Below, in pieces: positions 25,508-32,175 of a stretch of 64,000 nucleotides of DNA. The notes under the pieces were generated by a model. It made no database searches, had not been told where the DNA came from, and worked only from the letters and a program-made list of their open reading frames with translations. The DNA comes from Phycisphaerae bacterium (GTDB taxonomy: Bacteria > Planctomycetota > Phycisphaerae > UBA1845): positions 1 to 64,000 of the forward strand of contig JAJDDT010000038.1 in the NCBI GenBank assembly GCA_029260165.1, in the 5' to 3' direction. Both the position numbers and the translations under genes were made by a program. How positions within the stretch are numbered: position 1 is the stretch's first letter; the number at the start of each line of letters is the position of its first letter.

Positions 25508-25969
25508 TCAGATTGTTTCTCTGCTTTCAAGAAATTTCTGCATGGCGGTGAGGGTACTGGGTGAGAGGTGGTGCTCGATGCCCTCCGCGTCGGTGTCGGC
25601 GTCCTTCCCTGGAACACCAAGGGCGATGAGGAAGTCGAGGACAAGGGTGTGTCGCGACCGTGCGTGCTCGGCGAGCTTTCTGCCCTTTGAGGTCAGGAAA
25701 ATGGAACGGTAGGGTTCCGACGTGACCAGGCCATCGCGTTTGAGACGTGCGACGGTGTTGGTGACGGTGACGTGGCTGACACCAAGATGCTTTGCGATAT
25801 CGACCGCCCGGGCTTCTTTTTTTTCGGTGATGAGGTCGTCGATCAGCTCGACGTAATCCTCCGCGAGTTCGCGGGCGTGGTCAGCGCGGGTACGCTCGTG
25901 TCCCCTGGCGGTGGTCGAGGATGAGCGTTTGGGGCGCGTGGTGTTGTTTTTTGTCGTTTTCCGGGCCAT
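25508..25969 (-). CDS. mntR: Manganese-responsive transcriptional regulator MntR (DtxR family)
   Basis: 153 residues. After a basic N-terminal extension (about 35 residues, as in proteobacterial MntR) come the winged helix (AVDIAKHLGVSHVTVTNTVA) and the dimerisation helix. All six positions that bind Mn in Bacillus MntR can be matched: Asp and Glu in AEDYVELI, His in SRHTLVLDFL, and Glu, Glu, His in AEGIEHHL. The Asp (rather than the DtxR Met) favours manganese over iron. No C-terminal SH3-like domain. The gene diverges from mntABCD, with a promoter and a palindrome between them, so it should repress the operon when Mn is plentiful. Confidence 0.92.
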   Translation of the reverse strand: MARKTTKNNTTRPKRSSSTTARGHERTRADHARELAEDYVELIDDLITEKKEARAVDIAKHLGVSHVTVTNTVARLKRDGLVTSEPYRSIFLTSKGRKLAEHARSRHTLVLDFLIALGVPGKDADTDAEGIEHHLSPSTLTAMQKFLESRETI

Positions 25970-26026
25970 TTCGGGGTCACTATAGCCGTTGGGGGTCCGT
26001 GTGCCAACGGGCGACAGGGTTGACGC

Positions 26027-26056
26027 TTGACAAGCGCACGCGTTCCGGATTATCAT
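26027..26056 (+). promoter_or_regulatory. Promoter of mntABCD
   Basis: Perfect -35 TTGACA at 26027-26032 and a -10 TATCAT at 26051-26056 (five of six consensus bases), 18-base spacing (17 if TTATCA is counted). Transcription would start near 26063, just before the MntR-type palindrome. Confidence 0.75.
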
Positions 26057-26073
26057 GAACAAAGTTTTGTAGT

Positions 26074-27160: not shown

Positions 27161-27973
27161 ATGATATTGAACGAACGACGGGATGTGACAGCCGTGGCGG
27201 ACGATCATAATGCGTCGTCGCCGTTGTCGATTCATGACATGACCGTGGCGTATCATCGCAGGCCTGTGCTGTGGGATATTGACTACGCAGCTCCGGAGGG
27301 AAGCCTGATCGGGATCGTGGGCCCCAACGGGGCGGGCAAGAGCACGATGATCAAAGCCTGTCTGGATCTGGTGCCCCGGGCGTCCGGGAGCGTGCGGTTT
27401 CACGGTGGAACGTATCGCGCACAGAGACGATCGGTGGGGTATGTGCCTCAGCGGGAGAGCGTGGATTGGGATTTCCCCGCCAGCGCGCTGGACGTGGTGG
27501 CGATGGGTTGCTACGGGCGGATTCCGTGGTGTTGGCCTGTGCGCAGAAAGGATCGCGAAGCAGCGCGGGAGGCGTTGGATCGGGTGGGAATGGTCGACTA
27601 CGCGGATCGACAGATCAGCAAATTGTCGGGAGGGCAGCAGCAACGTGTGTTCCTGGCGCGGGCGTTGGTTCAGGATGCACGGACGTATCTGATGGACGAA
27701 CCGTTTGCCGGGGTTGATGCAGCCACTGAGGCAGCCATCGTGACGCTGCTGCGAACGCTTCGTGATGGTGGCAAGACGGTATTGGTGGTGCATCACGATT
27801 TGCAGACGGTGCCCGAATATTTTGATCATGTTGTGCTGTTGAATATGCGGATTGTGGCAGCCGGTGCGACGGCGGAAGTGTTCACACCGGAGAATCTGCA
27901 GAAGACGTATGGTGGGCGTTTGACGCTGCTGGACAAGGCCGCCCATGTGATGGCGAGCGGGGGACGGCGGTGA
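27161..27973 (+). CDS. mntB: Manganese/zinc ABC transporter ATP-binding protein
   Basis: 270 residues. Walker [10 protein letters not shown] (about 57), Q loop [15 protein letters not shown] (typical of Mn/Zn importers), signature LSGGQQQRV, Walker [13 protein letters not shown] and switch VHHDLQTV. The [12 protein letters not shown] segment is diagnostic for the MntB/ZnuC group. An N-terminal extension of about 20 residues precedes the domain. It starts 31 bases after mntA, and its stop overlaps the GTG of mntC (GTGA), so translation is coupled. Confidence 0.93.
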
Positions 27974-29439
27974 ATCCCCTTTTCGGTCGGCATTTCCCGA
28001 TGCGTGACGGATTCTGCCCTTGCCGCATGTTACGCATATTACACATGAGACGCGTCCTGTTTCCTGCCGTTGTGTTGTTCATCGGTGCGGGTGAAGCCCT
28101 CGGCGACGTGGGTGGGGCGATGGATGGCATTCTTGAAATAACCACATGGGGAAAGATTTGGCGGGCGTTGACGCTGGTGGATCATACGACGCGTGTTGTG
28201 GTCATCGGGACGACCGTGTTGGGAGCAGCCGCCGGTGTGGTTGGAACGTTTGCCTACCTGCGGAAGCGGGCGATGTTGGGTGATGCGTTGAGCCATGCGA
28301 CGTTGCCTGGGATCGCGTTGGCGTTCGTGATATTGGGCGAGAAGCGGTTGGGTTGGATGACGGTGGGAGCAGCCGTGACCGGGGTGCTGGGGGTGTTGGC
28401 GGTGTTGGGTTTGCGACGCGTGCCGCGGGTGAAGGAAGACGCGGCGATCGGCATCGTGCTGAGTGTGTTTTTTGGCGCGGGGTTGGTGCTGATGAGCCTG
28501 ATTCAACAGATGGGGTCGGGGGAAGAGGCAGGGTTACGAAGTTTCATCTACGGCAAAGCCGCGGCGATGTTAACGAACGACGCGTGGTTGATCGGTGTGT
28601 CTGCCGGGGTGGTGCTTGTCTGCTGCGTGCTGCTGTTCAAGGAGTTTCGGCTGATTTGTTTTGATCAGTCGTATGCGTCGTCGCAGGGCTGGCCTGTGGG
28701 GTTGATTGATCTGTTGATGATGGGTTTGGTGGTATTGACGACGGTCGTTGGGTTGCAGGCGGTCGGAATGATCCTGGTGGTGGCTTTGCTGATCGTCCCT
28801 GCGGCTGCCGCGCGGTTCTGGACCGATCGGCTGGGACGGATGACGGTGGCGGCGGGGGTGTTTGGCGCGTTGAGCGGTTGGTTGGGATCGACGATCAGCG
28901 CCGTGTTGCCAAGGATGCCGACGGGAGCGGTGATCGTGTTGTGCACGGGTGTGTTGTTCCTGATGAGTATGATTCTGTCGCCTCATCGGGGTGTGTTGGC
29001 TGGCTTGATTCGGCGGATGAGGCTCGCGAGACGCGTGGCGGATCAGCATTTGCTGCGTGCGCTCGCAGAAATCGAGGAGTCGCGTGGGGAGGGGACCCGG
29101 GTGGAGGAATCAGAGCTGTGGAAAATGCGAAGCTGGTCAGCCGCTGGTTTTTCACGGGTCATGGGTCGCGGGCAACGGAGGGGGTGGATTGATGGGGACG
29201 GTCGGCAGTGTCGATTGACCGCGACCGGGCGCACGTTGGCCAAACGCGTGTTGACAAACCACCGTCTATGGGAGCTGTATCTGATTCGGTATGCGGATAT
29301 CGCACCATCGCATGTGGATCGTGACGCCGATGAGATCGAGCACATTTTGAGCGAGGGATTGGTGCAGGAGTTGCGTCAGGCGCTGGCGGAGGAAACGACA
29401 ATCCCACCATCGCCGCACGTTGCCGGAGTGGGAATCTGA
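27970..29439 (+). CDS. mntC: Manganese/zinc ABC permease fused to a DtxR-like domain
   Basis: 489 residues, GTG overlapping the mntB stop; inner starts at 28000 or 28046 ([14 protein letters not shown]) are possible. Residues about 60-345 form an ABC-3 family permease with eight or so membrane helices ([40 protein letters not shown]). The cytosolic C-terminus (about 360-480) carries a winged helix ([20 protein letters not shown]) and the DtxR dimerisation/metal segment HRLWELYL ... DADEIEHIL, with the MntR His, Glu and His positions kept and Asp for the first Glu. The permease may therefore sense cytosolic metal directly. The stop overlaps mntD (TGATG). Confidence 0.92.
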
Positions 29440-30809
29440 TGGTGTGGGAGTGGTCGATCGACGGATGGATTCTGTTGGCTGGTGTGCTGAGCGCGTGCTC
29501 GTGCGCCCTGGTTGGCAATTTCCTGGTCTTGCGAAAACTGAGCCTGATGGGTGATGCGATTTCGCACGCCGTGCTTCCGGGGCTGGTGATTGCGTTTATC
29601 GTCACAAACAGCCGTGCGTCGTTGCCGATGTTTGTTGGGGCAGTCATCGTCGGGGTGTTGACGGCCTTCCTGACGCAGGTGATCACGCGACACGGAAAAG
29701 TCGAGCACGGTGCAGCCATGGGCGTCGTGTTTTCGATATTGTTTGCGTTTGGGTTGGTCTTGATTCGACGGGCACCGGGGGCGGACCATGTGGATCTGGA
29801 TCCGGAGTGCGTTCTGCTCGGAAACATGATGCAGATCGGAATGGCTGGTTTTGGGGGAATGTTTCCAACCGCCATAACGAATCTTCTGATCGTGATGGCA
29901 GCCAATATTCTGTTCGTCGGTCTATTTTACAAGGAATTGCGAATTTGTGCGTTTGATCCGGAATTGGCGACGTCGTTGGGAATACCCGCGTCCGTCATGC
30001 ACTACGCGTTGATGGTGATGGTAGCCATTACAACGATCGCCAGTTTTGAGGCGGTGGGGTCTATTCTGGTCATCGCAATGCTGATCGTGCCAGCCGTCAC
30101 AGCGCATCTGTTGGCTGATCGACTTGGTGCGATGATTTTTCTGAGTCTGATCGCAGCCGCGGTATCAGCCGTGATGGGTCATGTGCTGGCGATGTTTGGT
30201 CCGGGATGGTTGGGGATGAAAACGACGGTTGCGTCGTTGGCAGAAACATCGCCGATGACGGCGGAGACGTCGGCGATGATGGCGGTGGTGGCTGGCGCGT
30301 TGCTGTTGGCTGCGGTCCTGTTTTCGCCGGAGCACGGGTTGCTCGGACGGGCGTATCATCGTTTTGCACTGGCGACGCGCATCGTGGGACAGGATGTTCT
30401 GGGCTGGTTGTATCGCGGGCAGGAAGCGGGAAAACATGTGATGATGCGCACGGAGGTGATCCGCGTGATTGGGCGATCCTGGCAATCGCGATGGGCGCTA
30501 CGGCGATTGCAACACCAGGGTCTGCTCGATGTGGAAACCCATGAATCAGGGGAAGCGGGTTTGCGGTTGACGCAGCGCGGGCGGATTCAAGCGGAGCGGG
30601 TTGTGGGGTCGCACCGTCTTTGGGAATCGTACATGTCCGAGCATTTTGATCTGGCCGACGATCATCTGCACGAACCCGCAAATCGGATGGAGCATTTCAT
30701 TACGCCGGAATTGCAGGACGAGCTGAGGCGCGACGTGCCGGACGCAACACGCGACCCGCACGGGAAACCCGTTCCGCCGCTGAACGATTCGTTGCTCGAT
30801 GATTCCTGA
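29439..30809 (+). CDS. mntD: Second manganese/zinc ABC permease fused to a DtxR-like domain
   Basis: 456 residues. ABC-3 permease core at about 1-310 (LRKLSLMGDAISHAVLPGLV, EAVGSILVIAMLIVPAVTAH). It is followed by a cytosolic winged helix (RRLQHQGLLDVETHESGEAG, LRLTQRGRIQAERVV) and the segment HRLWESYM ... PANRMEHFI, the counterpart of the MntR metal-binding helices; the Glu-His pair is kept but the preceding acidic ligand is Asn. With mntC it probably forms a heterodimeric channel bearing two regulator-like domains. The last gene of the operon ends only 7 bases from the convergent membrane-protein gene, with no terminator between. Confidence 0.92.
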   Translation: MVWEWSIDGWILLAGVLSACSCALVGNFLVLRKLSLMGDAISHAVLPGLVIAFIVTNSRASLPMFVGAVIVGVLTAFLTQVITRHGKVEHGAAMGVVFSILFAFGLVLIRRAPGADHVDLDPECVLLGNMMQIGMAGFGGMFPTAITNLLIVMAANILFVGLFYKELRICAFDPELATSLGIPASVMHYALMVMVAITTIASFEAVGSILVIAMLIVPAVTAHLLADRLGAMIFLSLIAAAVSAVMGHVLAMFGPGWLGMKTTVASLAETSPMTAETSAMMAVVAGALLLAAVLFSPEHGLLGRAYHRFALATRIVGQDVLGWLYRGQEAGKHVMMRTEVIRVIGRSWQSRWALRRLQHQGLLDVETHESGEAGLRLTQRGRIQAERVVGSHRLWESYMSEHFDLADDHLHEPANRMEHFITPELQDELRRDVPDATRDPHGKPVPPLNDSLLDDS

Positions 30810-30816
30810 CGGATTT

Positions 30817-31497
30817 TCAGGTCAGATGTGGTGCCGGAAGGCGTAGTTGCGTTTTTCCCCTGAGCCCGAGGATCGCTCGAACGACCACAATGGGCGGCGT
30901 CAAACAGAAAACGAAAATGAAACCATTGAGCACAAGCAAATAAAGCGATTTGTGCATTCTGTTGATACAGGCAAGCCAGTGATAACCGAACGGGTTGTTC
31001 AGGCCGTGGGCATAATTGATGTTGAGATGGGTCGGCGTTGCTGCGTGGCAAATCAGCGTGAGTACCAGCCACAGCGTGGCTGCCGTTCCGACCGCAATCA
31101 ACGGGCATTGTCGCTGCCTGATCAGTGCCCAGGCGAGGACGGGCGTGAGATAGAAATGGTGCAGAGTCGCAAGCCAGGTGGATAGATCAGCACCATCCAG
31201 ATACCTCGTGGCGGAAAATGGAAACGTCCCCGTGCTCAGTCCCCACAGACAATCAATGCACCAGAGAGTGTGCAGTGTACAGACACACGAAAACGCGGTC
31301 GCAAGAACCACGGTGTGACGCGTCCACATTCCAACCGCAGCCAACAGAAGCGATACATGTGACAGCCACACCAGTTCAAGCGTGAGACCTTTGCTCACCT
31401 TGACAACGCAGACGACGGCGAATTGAGCAAACAGCAGCACCGCGACAAGCCTGTCAGAAGAAAATCCCTTCCCGCCTGCACTCACGCCCATCGTCAT
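30817..31497 (-). CDS. Multi-pass membrane protein of unknown function
   Basis: 226 residues with about six hydrophobic segments (for example LVAVLLFAQFAVVCVVKVSK, VGTAATLWLVLTLICHAATP, LLVLNGFIFVFCLTPPIVVV). Conserved-looking polar points include HHFYLTPVLAW and HLNINYAHGLNNPFGYHW, loosely reminiscent of TIGR02206/YwaF-type integral membrane proteins, but I cannot assign the family firmly. Its start overlaps the end of the pseudopilin gene by four bases (ATGA), so the two are co-translated; this suggests a role linked to the pilin or merely shared expression. Confidence 0.75.
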   Translation of the reverse strand: MTMGVSAGGKGFSSDRLVAVLLFAQFAVVCVVKVSKGLTLELVWLSHVSLLLAAVGMWTRHTVVLATAFSCVCTLHTLWCIDCLWGLSTGTFPFSATRYLDGADLSTWLATLHHFYLTPVLAWALIRQRQCPLIAVGTAATLWLVLTLICHAATPTHLNINYAHGLNNPFGYHWLACINRMHKSLYLLVLNGFIFVFCLTPPIVVVRAILGLRGKTQLRLPAPHLT

Positions 31498-32030
31498 GAC
31501 CCACCACCGCCGCCGCCACCTCCTCCACTGCCTCCTCCACCACCGTAATTCCCCAACAGCGTCTCATTCGACCAGTTGACAAGGTTGTAGAAATCGATGG
31601 TCGCAGCCGAGCTGCCCATGTCCGCCACGCGCGCCCTGACGTCGCCTGTGTTGCTGTTGTACCAGTAGGCGCCGGCGACTCCCGCCGCGATGACCTTCAA
31701 CGCAGGATGCCGGATGGTGTCGACGTTATAGACCTGAATGCTGGCGATGCCAAAGCCGTTTTGCGGATGCCTGGGAAGATTCTTGCCGGCGAACCAGTCT
31801 GACAGAATCGCAGCGGGGTAGCTGCCGTCGCTGGTTTCCTGTTTCTGATAATAGACCTGCTTCCGGATGGCGTTGATGTTGGACTGAAGCGTGACGATGG
31901 CTGATCGCTGCGCGGCAGAACTGAACTCGGGCACGACCATGAGCGCGAGAATCGACAGCACGAGGACGACCACAAGCACTTCCACGAGCGTGAAGGCACG
32001 ATCGTTGATTCGTTTGAAAGTTCTAATAAT
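31494..32030 (-). CDS. Type IV pilin-like protein (pseudopilin), start codon unusual
   Basis: The prepilin signature is DRAFTLVEVLVVVLVLSILA, with the cleavage site before Phe and the Glu at mature position 5, followed by a hydrophobic helix; such proteins form type II secretion pseudopili or type IV pili. In this frame the segment upstream of AFTLVE has no ATG, GTG or TTG before a TGA stop: only two ATT codons at 32030-32025, just after GAATCGAG. The nearest normal start (GTG 31985) lies inside the signature and would destroy it. I extend the gene to the ATT as best guess; a frameshift is the alternative. The mature part ends in a glycine/serine tail. Confidence 0.7.
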   Translation of the reverse strand: MIRTFKRINDRAFTLVEVLVVVLVLSILALMVVPEFSSAAQRSAIVTLQSNINAIRKQVYYQKQETSDGSYPAAILSDWFAGKNLPRHPQNGFGIASIQVYNVDTIRHPALKVIAAGVAGAYWYNSNTGDVRARVADMGSSAATIDFYNLVNWSNETLLGNYGGGGGSGGGGGGGGGS

Positions 32031-32175
32031 TACTCGATTCCATCAGGGCGATTCCTCGCCGGCACAGTCCCTCCCTGGAGCATCGTACGATTGGAGGGCT
32101 GAGTTTAGACGATCCATGTGCGCTATTATAAATCGTGGTACAATCCCAAATGATCGACACCGGGAACAAGGGGAA

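Follow-up and report, generated by a model that had tools for sequence, protein, structure and literature searches.

The question raised by this locus is how a gene encoding a pilin-like protein might be translated when its prepilin signature is intact and ATG, GTG and TTG are all missing ahead of it. The locus lies in a 64,000-nucleotide stretch of DNA from a Phycisphaerae bacterium (hereafter the window), which is part of contig C51. The genome measures 4.43 Mb, is divided into 119 contigs and is the only assembly of the species that was available for comparison.

The pseudopilin reading frame and its leader

The 15 codons between a minus-strand TGA at 32045-32043 and the prepilin signature A^FTLVEV include no ATG, GTG or TTG. 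The codons after the TGA read TGG AAT CGA GTA ATT ATT AGA ACT TTC AAA CGA ATC AAC GAT CGT GCC TTC ACG CTC GTG, translating to the leader WNRVIIRTFKRINDRA^FTLV..., and the pilin continues as WNRVIIRTFKRINDRA^FTLVEVLVVVLVLSILALMVVPEF.... This reading bears out a preliminary description of the locus, in which the signature was stated to be intact in frame with no canonical start upstream and with the first GTG inside it. That GTG is at 31985, and the pilin begins only there in a mechanical list of open reading frames; a start at this codon was rejected because it would delete the leader and the cleavage site. The accompanying statement that only ATT codons could initiate translation was correct in that ATG, GTG and TTG are missing, but too narrow, as an ATC at 32009-32007 is a possible non-canonical start in addition to the ATT codons at 32030 and 32027. 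An ATG at 32117, in the same frame, opens an open reading frame of 24 codons that the TGA separates from the pilin frame. At its 3' end the pilin frame encodes a glycine-rich C-terminus and closes with a TGA overlapping the ATG of the downstream gene. The features of the locus are as follows.

30817-31497, minus strand: downstream partner gene encoding a hydrophobic protein of 226 amino acids, its ATG overlapping the pilin stop (ATGA)
31494-32030, minus strand: pseudopilin coding frame, 178 amino acids plus stop from the first ATT, 177 amino acids from the second ATT (32027)
31935-32006, minus strand: prepilin cleavage/methylation signature and hydrophobic helix, A^FTLVEVLVVVLVLSILALMVVPEF, matched by PF07963 in a whole-genome search
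32025-32030, minus strand: ATT ATT candidate start codons, positions -11 and -10 relative to the alanine preceding the cleavage site
32023-32043, minus strand: out-of-frame minicistron ATG GAA TCG AGT AAT TAT TAG (MESSNY) overlapping the ATT codons, read from the sequence
32043-32045, minus strand: in-frame TGA closing the frame upstream of the pilin, read from the sequence
32047-32060, minus strand: small hairpin GGCGA-GGAA-TCGCC, from pairing probabilities, enclosing a GAGG motif 5' of the minicistron ATG

The encoded protein scored 30.6 bits against PF07963 (N_methyl; cut-off 21.2) and 26.8 bits against TIGR02532 (cut-off 16.3), and has the cleavage/methylation signature, the glutamate at +5 and the hydrophobic helix that define type IV prepilins and pseudopilins. 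The signature and helix, scoring over both cut-offs, are shared with the pseudopilins of type II secretion and type IV pilus systems, from which the protein differs by the missing canonical start and by scores below the equivalog cut-offs for GspG of type II secretion (TIGR01710; 33.4 bits against 88.85) and for ComGC (33.6 bits against 75). Eight sequences of solved structures matched at an E value of 0.01 or better; the pilins were matched mainly at the N-terminal helix, and two of the eight are antibody fragments whose match falls on the glycine-rich tail. One place over the cut-off for prepilin peptidase (PF01478) and 14 for pilus-type ATPase (PF00437) were found in the genome. If ATT is the start, the leader would be short and positively charged as expected of a prepilin, its 11 or 12 residues being in line with the orthologues; no canonical codon is there to open it. 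Elsewhere, a homologue 35% identical to the window pilin (L031, G004:C36:206-634) lacks the usual prepilin signature in its N-terminus, which reads MEKVRPKQETRLIDCSIVVVGIGIIVVVLF, and is possibly a degenerate or non-cleaved pilin.

A profile search of the genome returned 31 PF07963 places, each of which was walked upstream as far as a stop codon. In thirty of them the open frame offers a canonical start (ATG, GTG or TTG) before the signature is reached, and the pilin described here is the only one of the 31 that has none. ATT occupies 1.3% of the trinucleotide places in the window, and ATT, ATC and ATA together 4.3%. In a related pilin of another genome (L017, G014:C203) the signature is preceded by TTG and GTG only, with no ATG.

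Orthologues and the position of the start

Full-length orthologues were obtained from four genomes (G004, G034, G072 and G073), all of one sister genus, with identities to the window protein of approximately 40-52% that vary with the stretch aligned. A tree of 21 sequences groups the window gene with these orthologues with a support of 0.977. All four begin with an ATG at codon -10, ten codons before the cleavage-site alanine, giving a leader of 11 residues, and in each case the ATG aligns without a gap with the second ATT of the window (32027). The start is followed by arginine in the window and in two of the four (G004 and G034). At the DNA level the sister-genus leaders were judged by eye to be too diverged for alignment. 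The nearest paralogue that this genome contains, located on C107, begins with ATG ATC CGA ACA as compared to ATT ATT AGA ACT in the window, and its alignment, which needs a one-residue gap, would put the start on the first ATT. Despite the resemblance of the two leaders (MIRT and IIRT), the C107 gene was rejected as an orthologue, since the tree groups it with a gene on C63 of the same-genus genome G001 (support 0.979). Belonging to another subfamily, the C107 gene was given less weight and serves as side evidence only.

The gap-free placement of the orthologous ATG codons on the ATT favors a change of ATG to ATT over a frameshift. That the initiator ATG was turned into ATT is well, but not decisively, supported. 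Of the three options in the preliminary description, namely a true ATT start, a frameshift from an upstream ATG and a decayed gene, the ATT start is the one best supported by the orthologues; a conserved non-canonical start was looked for in the same four orthologues and found in none, all having ATG. Our preferred, although tentative, explanation is a live accessory pseudopilin gene heading a two-gene unit, in which an ancestral ATG ten or eleven codons before the signature alanine became ATT by substitution and the protein is translated from AUU at a low rate. Initiation at AUU would yield a normal leader, fMet-R-T-F-K-R-I-N-D-R-A (11 residues) or a form longer by one residue (12), that prepilin peptidase would cut before the phenylalanine.

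The same substitution could lie in the right place and be non-functional: it could be a one-base consensus error or a strain polymorphism, or the start may have been lost very recently, silencing the gene. This alternative is plausible, if somewhat less so than the preferred one, as ATG is kept in all four orthologues and a base error is conceivable in a genome represented here by one assembly of 119 contigs. The sequence carries no direct sign of error, and the intact remainder of the frame, with a pattern of substitutions by codon position that looks selected, requires any loss to be recent.

A second alternative is that the true start is the out-of-frame ATG, located at 32043-32041 rather than at about 32042 as had been given, and that a frameshift leads from it into the pilin frame; this could be a length error in the sequence, a genuine mutation, or a shift programmed at TAT TAG. 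The codons ATG GAA TCG AGT AAT TAT TAG do read as described. Among the candidate starts, this ATG is preceded by the strongest ribosome-site match (-6.5 kcal/mol), and of 5000 random places only 270 had an ATG with such a site within 30 nucleotides upstream. The resulting leader of 16 or 17 residues departs from the 11 residues of all four orthologues, which makes a frameshift less likely, and the presence of ATT at the orthologous start position would be left as a coincidence. No long homopolymer occurs between the ATG at 32043 and the signature, and the sequence TAT TAG A shows no obvious prfB-like slippery site, which counts against a programmed shift. A frameshift is considered unlikely.

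Ribosome-binding sites, infC and the overlapping minicistron

No Shine-Dalgarno site was found ahead of the ATT, for which the calculated value was -3.3 kcal/mol compared to a background mean of -2.8. The ATG codons of the orthologues gave values from -2.8 to -6.7 kcal/mol, two being equally weak (-2.8 and -3.5), a range indicating that this pilin family is not rich in Shine-Dalgarno sites.

The gene for initiation factor IF3, infC, provided a comparison for ATT, ATC and ATA starts. It was found in 37 of 40 genomes, and 30 loci from this genome and relatives of the same order were examined. Within 12 codons of the conserved domain, 24 of these have ATT, ATC or ATA and lack any canonical start; the remaining six have a TTG or GTG nearby, accompanied in four by ATC or ATT. 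The 24 loci suggest that ribosomes of the order read such starts. The infC genes of the genome containing the window and of the same-genus genome G001 probably use TTG; loci L075-L104 have mostly ATC or ATT, and the genus of the window seems to have switched to TTG. The ATT, ATC and ATA starts of infC mostly have strong Shine-Dalgarno sites, with a median of -8.3 kcal/mol as against -3.3 for the pilin ATT; the median retains an unreliable value of 0.8 for L098, which was scored at an ATA unlikely to be the true start. With no such site at the pilin ATT, unlike infC of the same order, efficient use of AUU is disfavored, and the same difference is consistent with a non-functional substitution. 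It also weakens the suggestion, made in the preliminary description, of tight control as in infC, all the more as the non-canonical start of the pilin is not conserved. Of the features expected of a genuine AUU, AUC or AUA start, the locus has an aligned ATT in the place of any canonical codon; it has neither a strong Shine-Dalgarno site nor conservation.

Comparison with characterized systems leads to a similar assessment. The infC and pcnB genes of E. coli have proven AUU starts, as stated in PMC9410913, and the pilin resembles them in having ATT where the start is expected and ATG, GTG and TTG are unavailable. It differs from infC in that ATT, ATC or ATA starts of infC are widespread in the order and mostly have strong Shine-Dalgarno sites, while the pilin ATT lacks one and ATG is the start codon of the pilin orthologues. 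According to PMC13009471, cvfC1 of S. aureus has an AUU start, and this AUU and AUA starts, with extended Shine-Dalgarno sites, gave approximately 10% of AUG output in poor medium. An unaided AUU should be weaker still. Like the pilin, cvfC1 is the first gene of an operon; it differs in a very strong extended Shine-Dalgarno site, conservation of the start among staphylococci and demonstration by ribosome profiling and reporters (PMC13009471). In the coupled sigR-rsrA pair of Streptomyces, the GTC with which the first gene begins reduces its product relative to that of the partner, by way of IF3 (PMC5472188). The likeness is a cotranscribed, translationally coupled gene pair whose upstream member has a non-canonical start; the difference is that the sigR start was tested and is repressed by IF3 (PMC5472188), while that of the pilin is ATT and its coupling is suggested by the four-base overlap only. 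A literature search returned no paper on non-canonical starts in pilins, which does not in itself prove that there are none.

Ahead of the minicistron ATG at 32043 lies a Shine-Dalgarno match of moderate strength (-6.5 kcal/mol, in approximately the strongest tenth of the background), and pairing probabilities place this site partly inside the small hairpin. Termination on the minicistron followed by reinitiation is a coherent, if speculative, route to use of the AUU codons. In its strict form, this route would make pilin synthesis depend entirely on ribosomes that, having completed the six codons of the minicistron, move back to reinitiate on the AUU AUU that it overlaps. Output would then be throttled twice, by IF3 discrimination and by the hairpin holding the Shine-Dalgarno site, and the pilin would be kept below its coupled membrane partner in a manner similar to sigR-rsrA but with an upstream open reading frame. 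An ATG minicistron ending within 12 nucleotides occurs at 175 of 1674 ATT places in the window, 30 of them with a Shine-Dalgarno value of -6.4 or lower, in a post hoc and weak comparison. Minicistrons opened by ATG, GTG or TTG were sought in the four orthologues and found in none. Reinitiation stays speculative in view of the 30 comparable places and the result with the orthologues, and exclusive dependence on it is regarded as improbable. In the preferred explanation of low-rate AUU translation, ribosomes leaving the minicistron may assist initiation, and the weak start would keep the pilin under its partner.

The leader was also considered as a candidate RNA element. The whole 201-nucleotide leader folded no better than shuffled sequences (z -0.02), and in an Rfam search of the leader no family reached its gathering score, the best matches having an E value of 1.1 and lying on the opposite strand; an RNA element was rejected on these results. 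They also bear on readthrough of the TGA, by which the 24-codon open reading frame starting at ATG 32117 would be joined to the pilin. The two share a frame with one TGA between them, but the product would have a leader of approximately 40 residues compared to 11 in the orthologues, and the leader has neither a fold beyond shuffles nor an Rfam family at gathering score. Readthrough was rejected on leader length and is given almost no credence.

Integrity of the gene and the two-gene unit

The pilin frame is open over 178 codons, with residues conserved up to the glycine-rich C-terminus. Differences at codon positions 1, 2 and 3 numbered 71, 51 and 102 relative to G004, 79, 56 and 106 relative to G034, 73, 60 and 106 relative to G072, and 71, 52 and 105 relative to G073. 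Third positions are favored in all four comparisons, a pattern that looks selected. The partner gene adjoins the pilin gene in all five genomes compared, which represent two genera (the window, G004, G034, G072 and G073); the stop and start overlap by four bases in the window, G004, G072 and G073, and the genes are two bases apart in G034. From the four-base overlap we infer translational coupling of the pilin to its partner. The missing canonical start is what speaks for a long-decayed pseudogene, the third option of the preliminary description. Against it stand the intact 178-codon frame, the conserved residues, the third-position bias relative to all four orthologues and the conserved partner with its overlap, which together indicate that the gene is not an old pseudogene; long-standing decay is accordingly without support and very improbable.

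The partner protein (226 amino acids) is 33-37% identical to the product of the downstream gene in the four sister-genus genomes, and no Pfam match was obtained for it even at an E value of 1, nor any NCBIfam match. In a fifth sister-genus genome, G074, the partner lies at the very end of a contig and the pilin side is cut off. Of the 51 family genomes searched, seven gave a match to the partner gene, one of these only a weak one; the same-genus genome G001 is not among them, indicating that the unit is accessory. Loss of the pilin could be tolerated in so patchy a unit, a point in favor of a non-functional substitution. The upstream neighbor differs by genus, with a glycosyltransferase in the window and an AAA/ParA-type protein in G004.

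The glycine- and serine-rich tail of the pilin (31494-31560), with G-rich codons before the ATGA, may also serve the partner gene as its ribosome-binding region. Among the four sister-genus orthologues, three likewise end in a glycine-rich tail, and that of the fourth is short. Elsewhere in the window, 27970-30809 encodes two ABC-3 type metal permeases. In both, the membrane part is fused at the C-terminal side to an iron-dependent-repressor domain (PF02742), and a separate gene for a DtxR-like regulator lies beside them at 25508-26062.

If the ATT is an assembly error or a start loss, the locus is ordinary, and a pilin with an ATT start is in any case a modest curiosity and not a new kind of system. 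The infC set, with 24 of 30 loci having ATT, ATC or ATA starts and mostly good Shine-Dalgarno sites, offers a yardstick for other candidates with non-canonical starts. Should the AUU start be genuine, a pilus-type gene would be added to the short list of bacterial genes that start with AUU, and it would suggest that gene callers truncate or drop such prepilins, as with the open reading frame list used here, which begins inside the signature and loses the leader.
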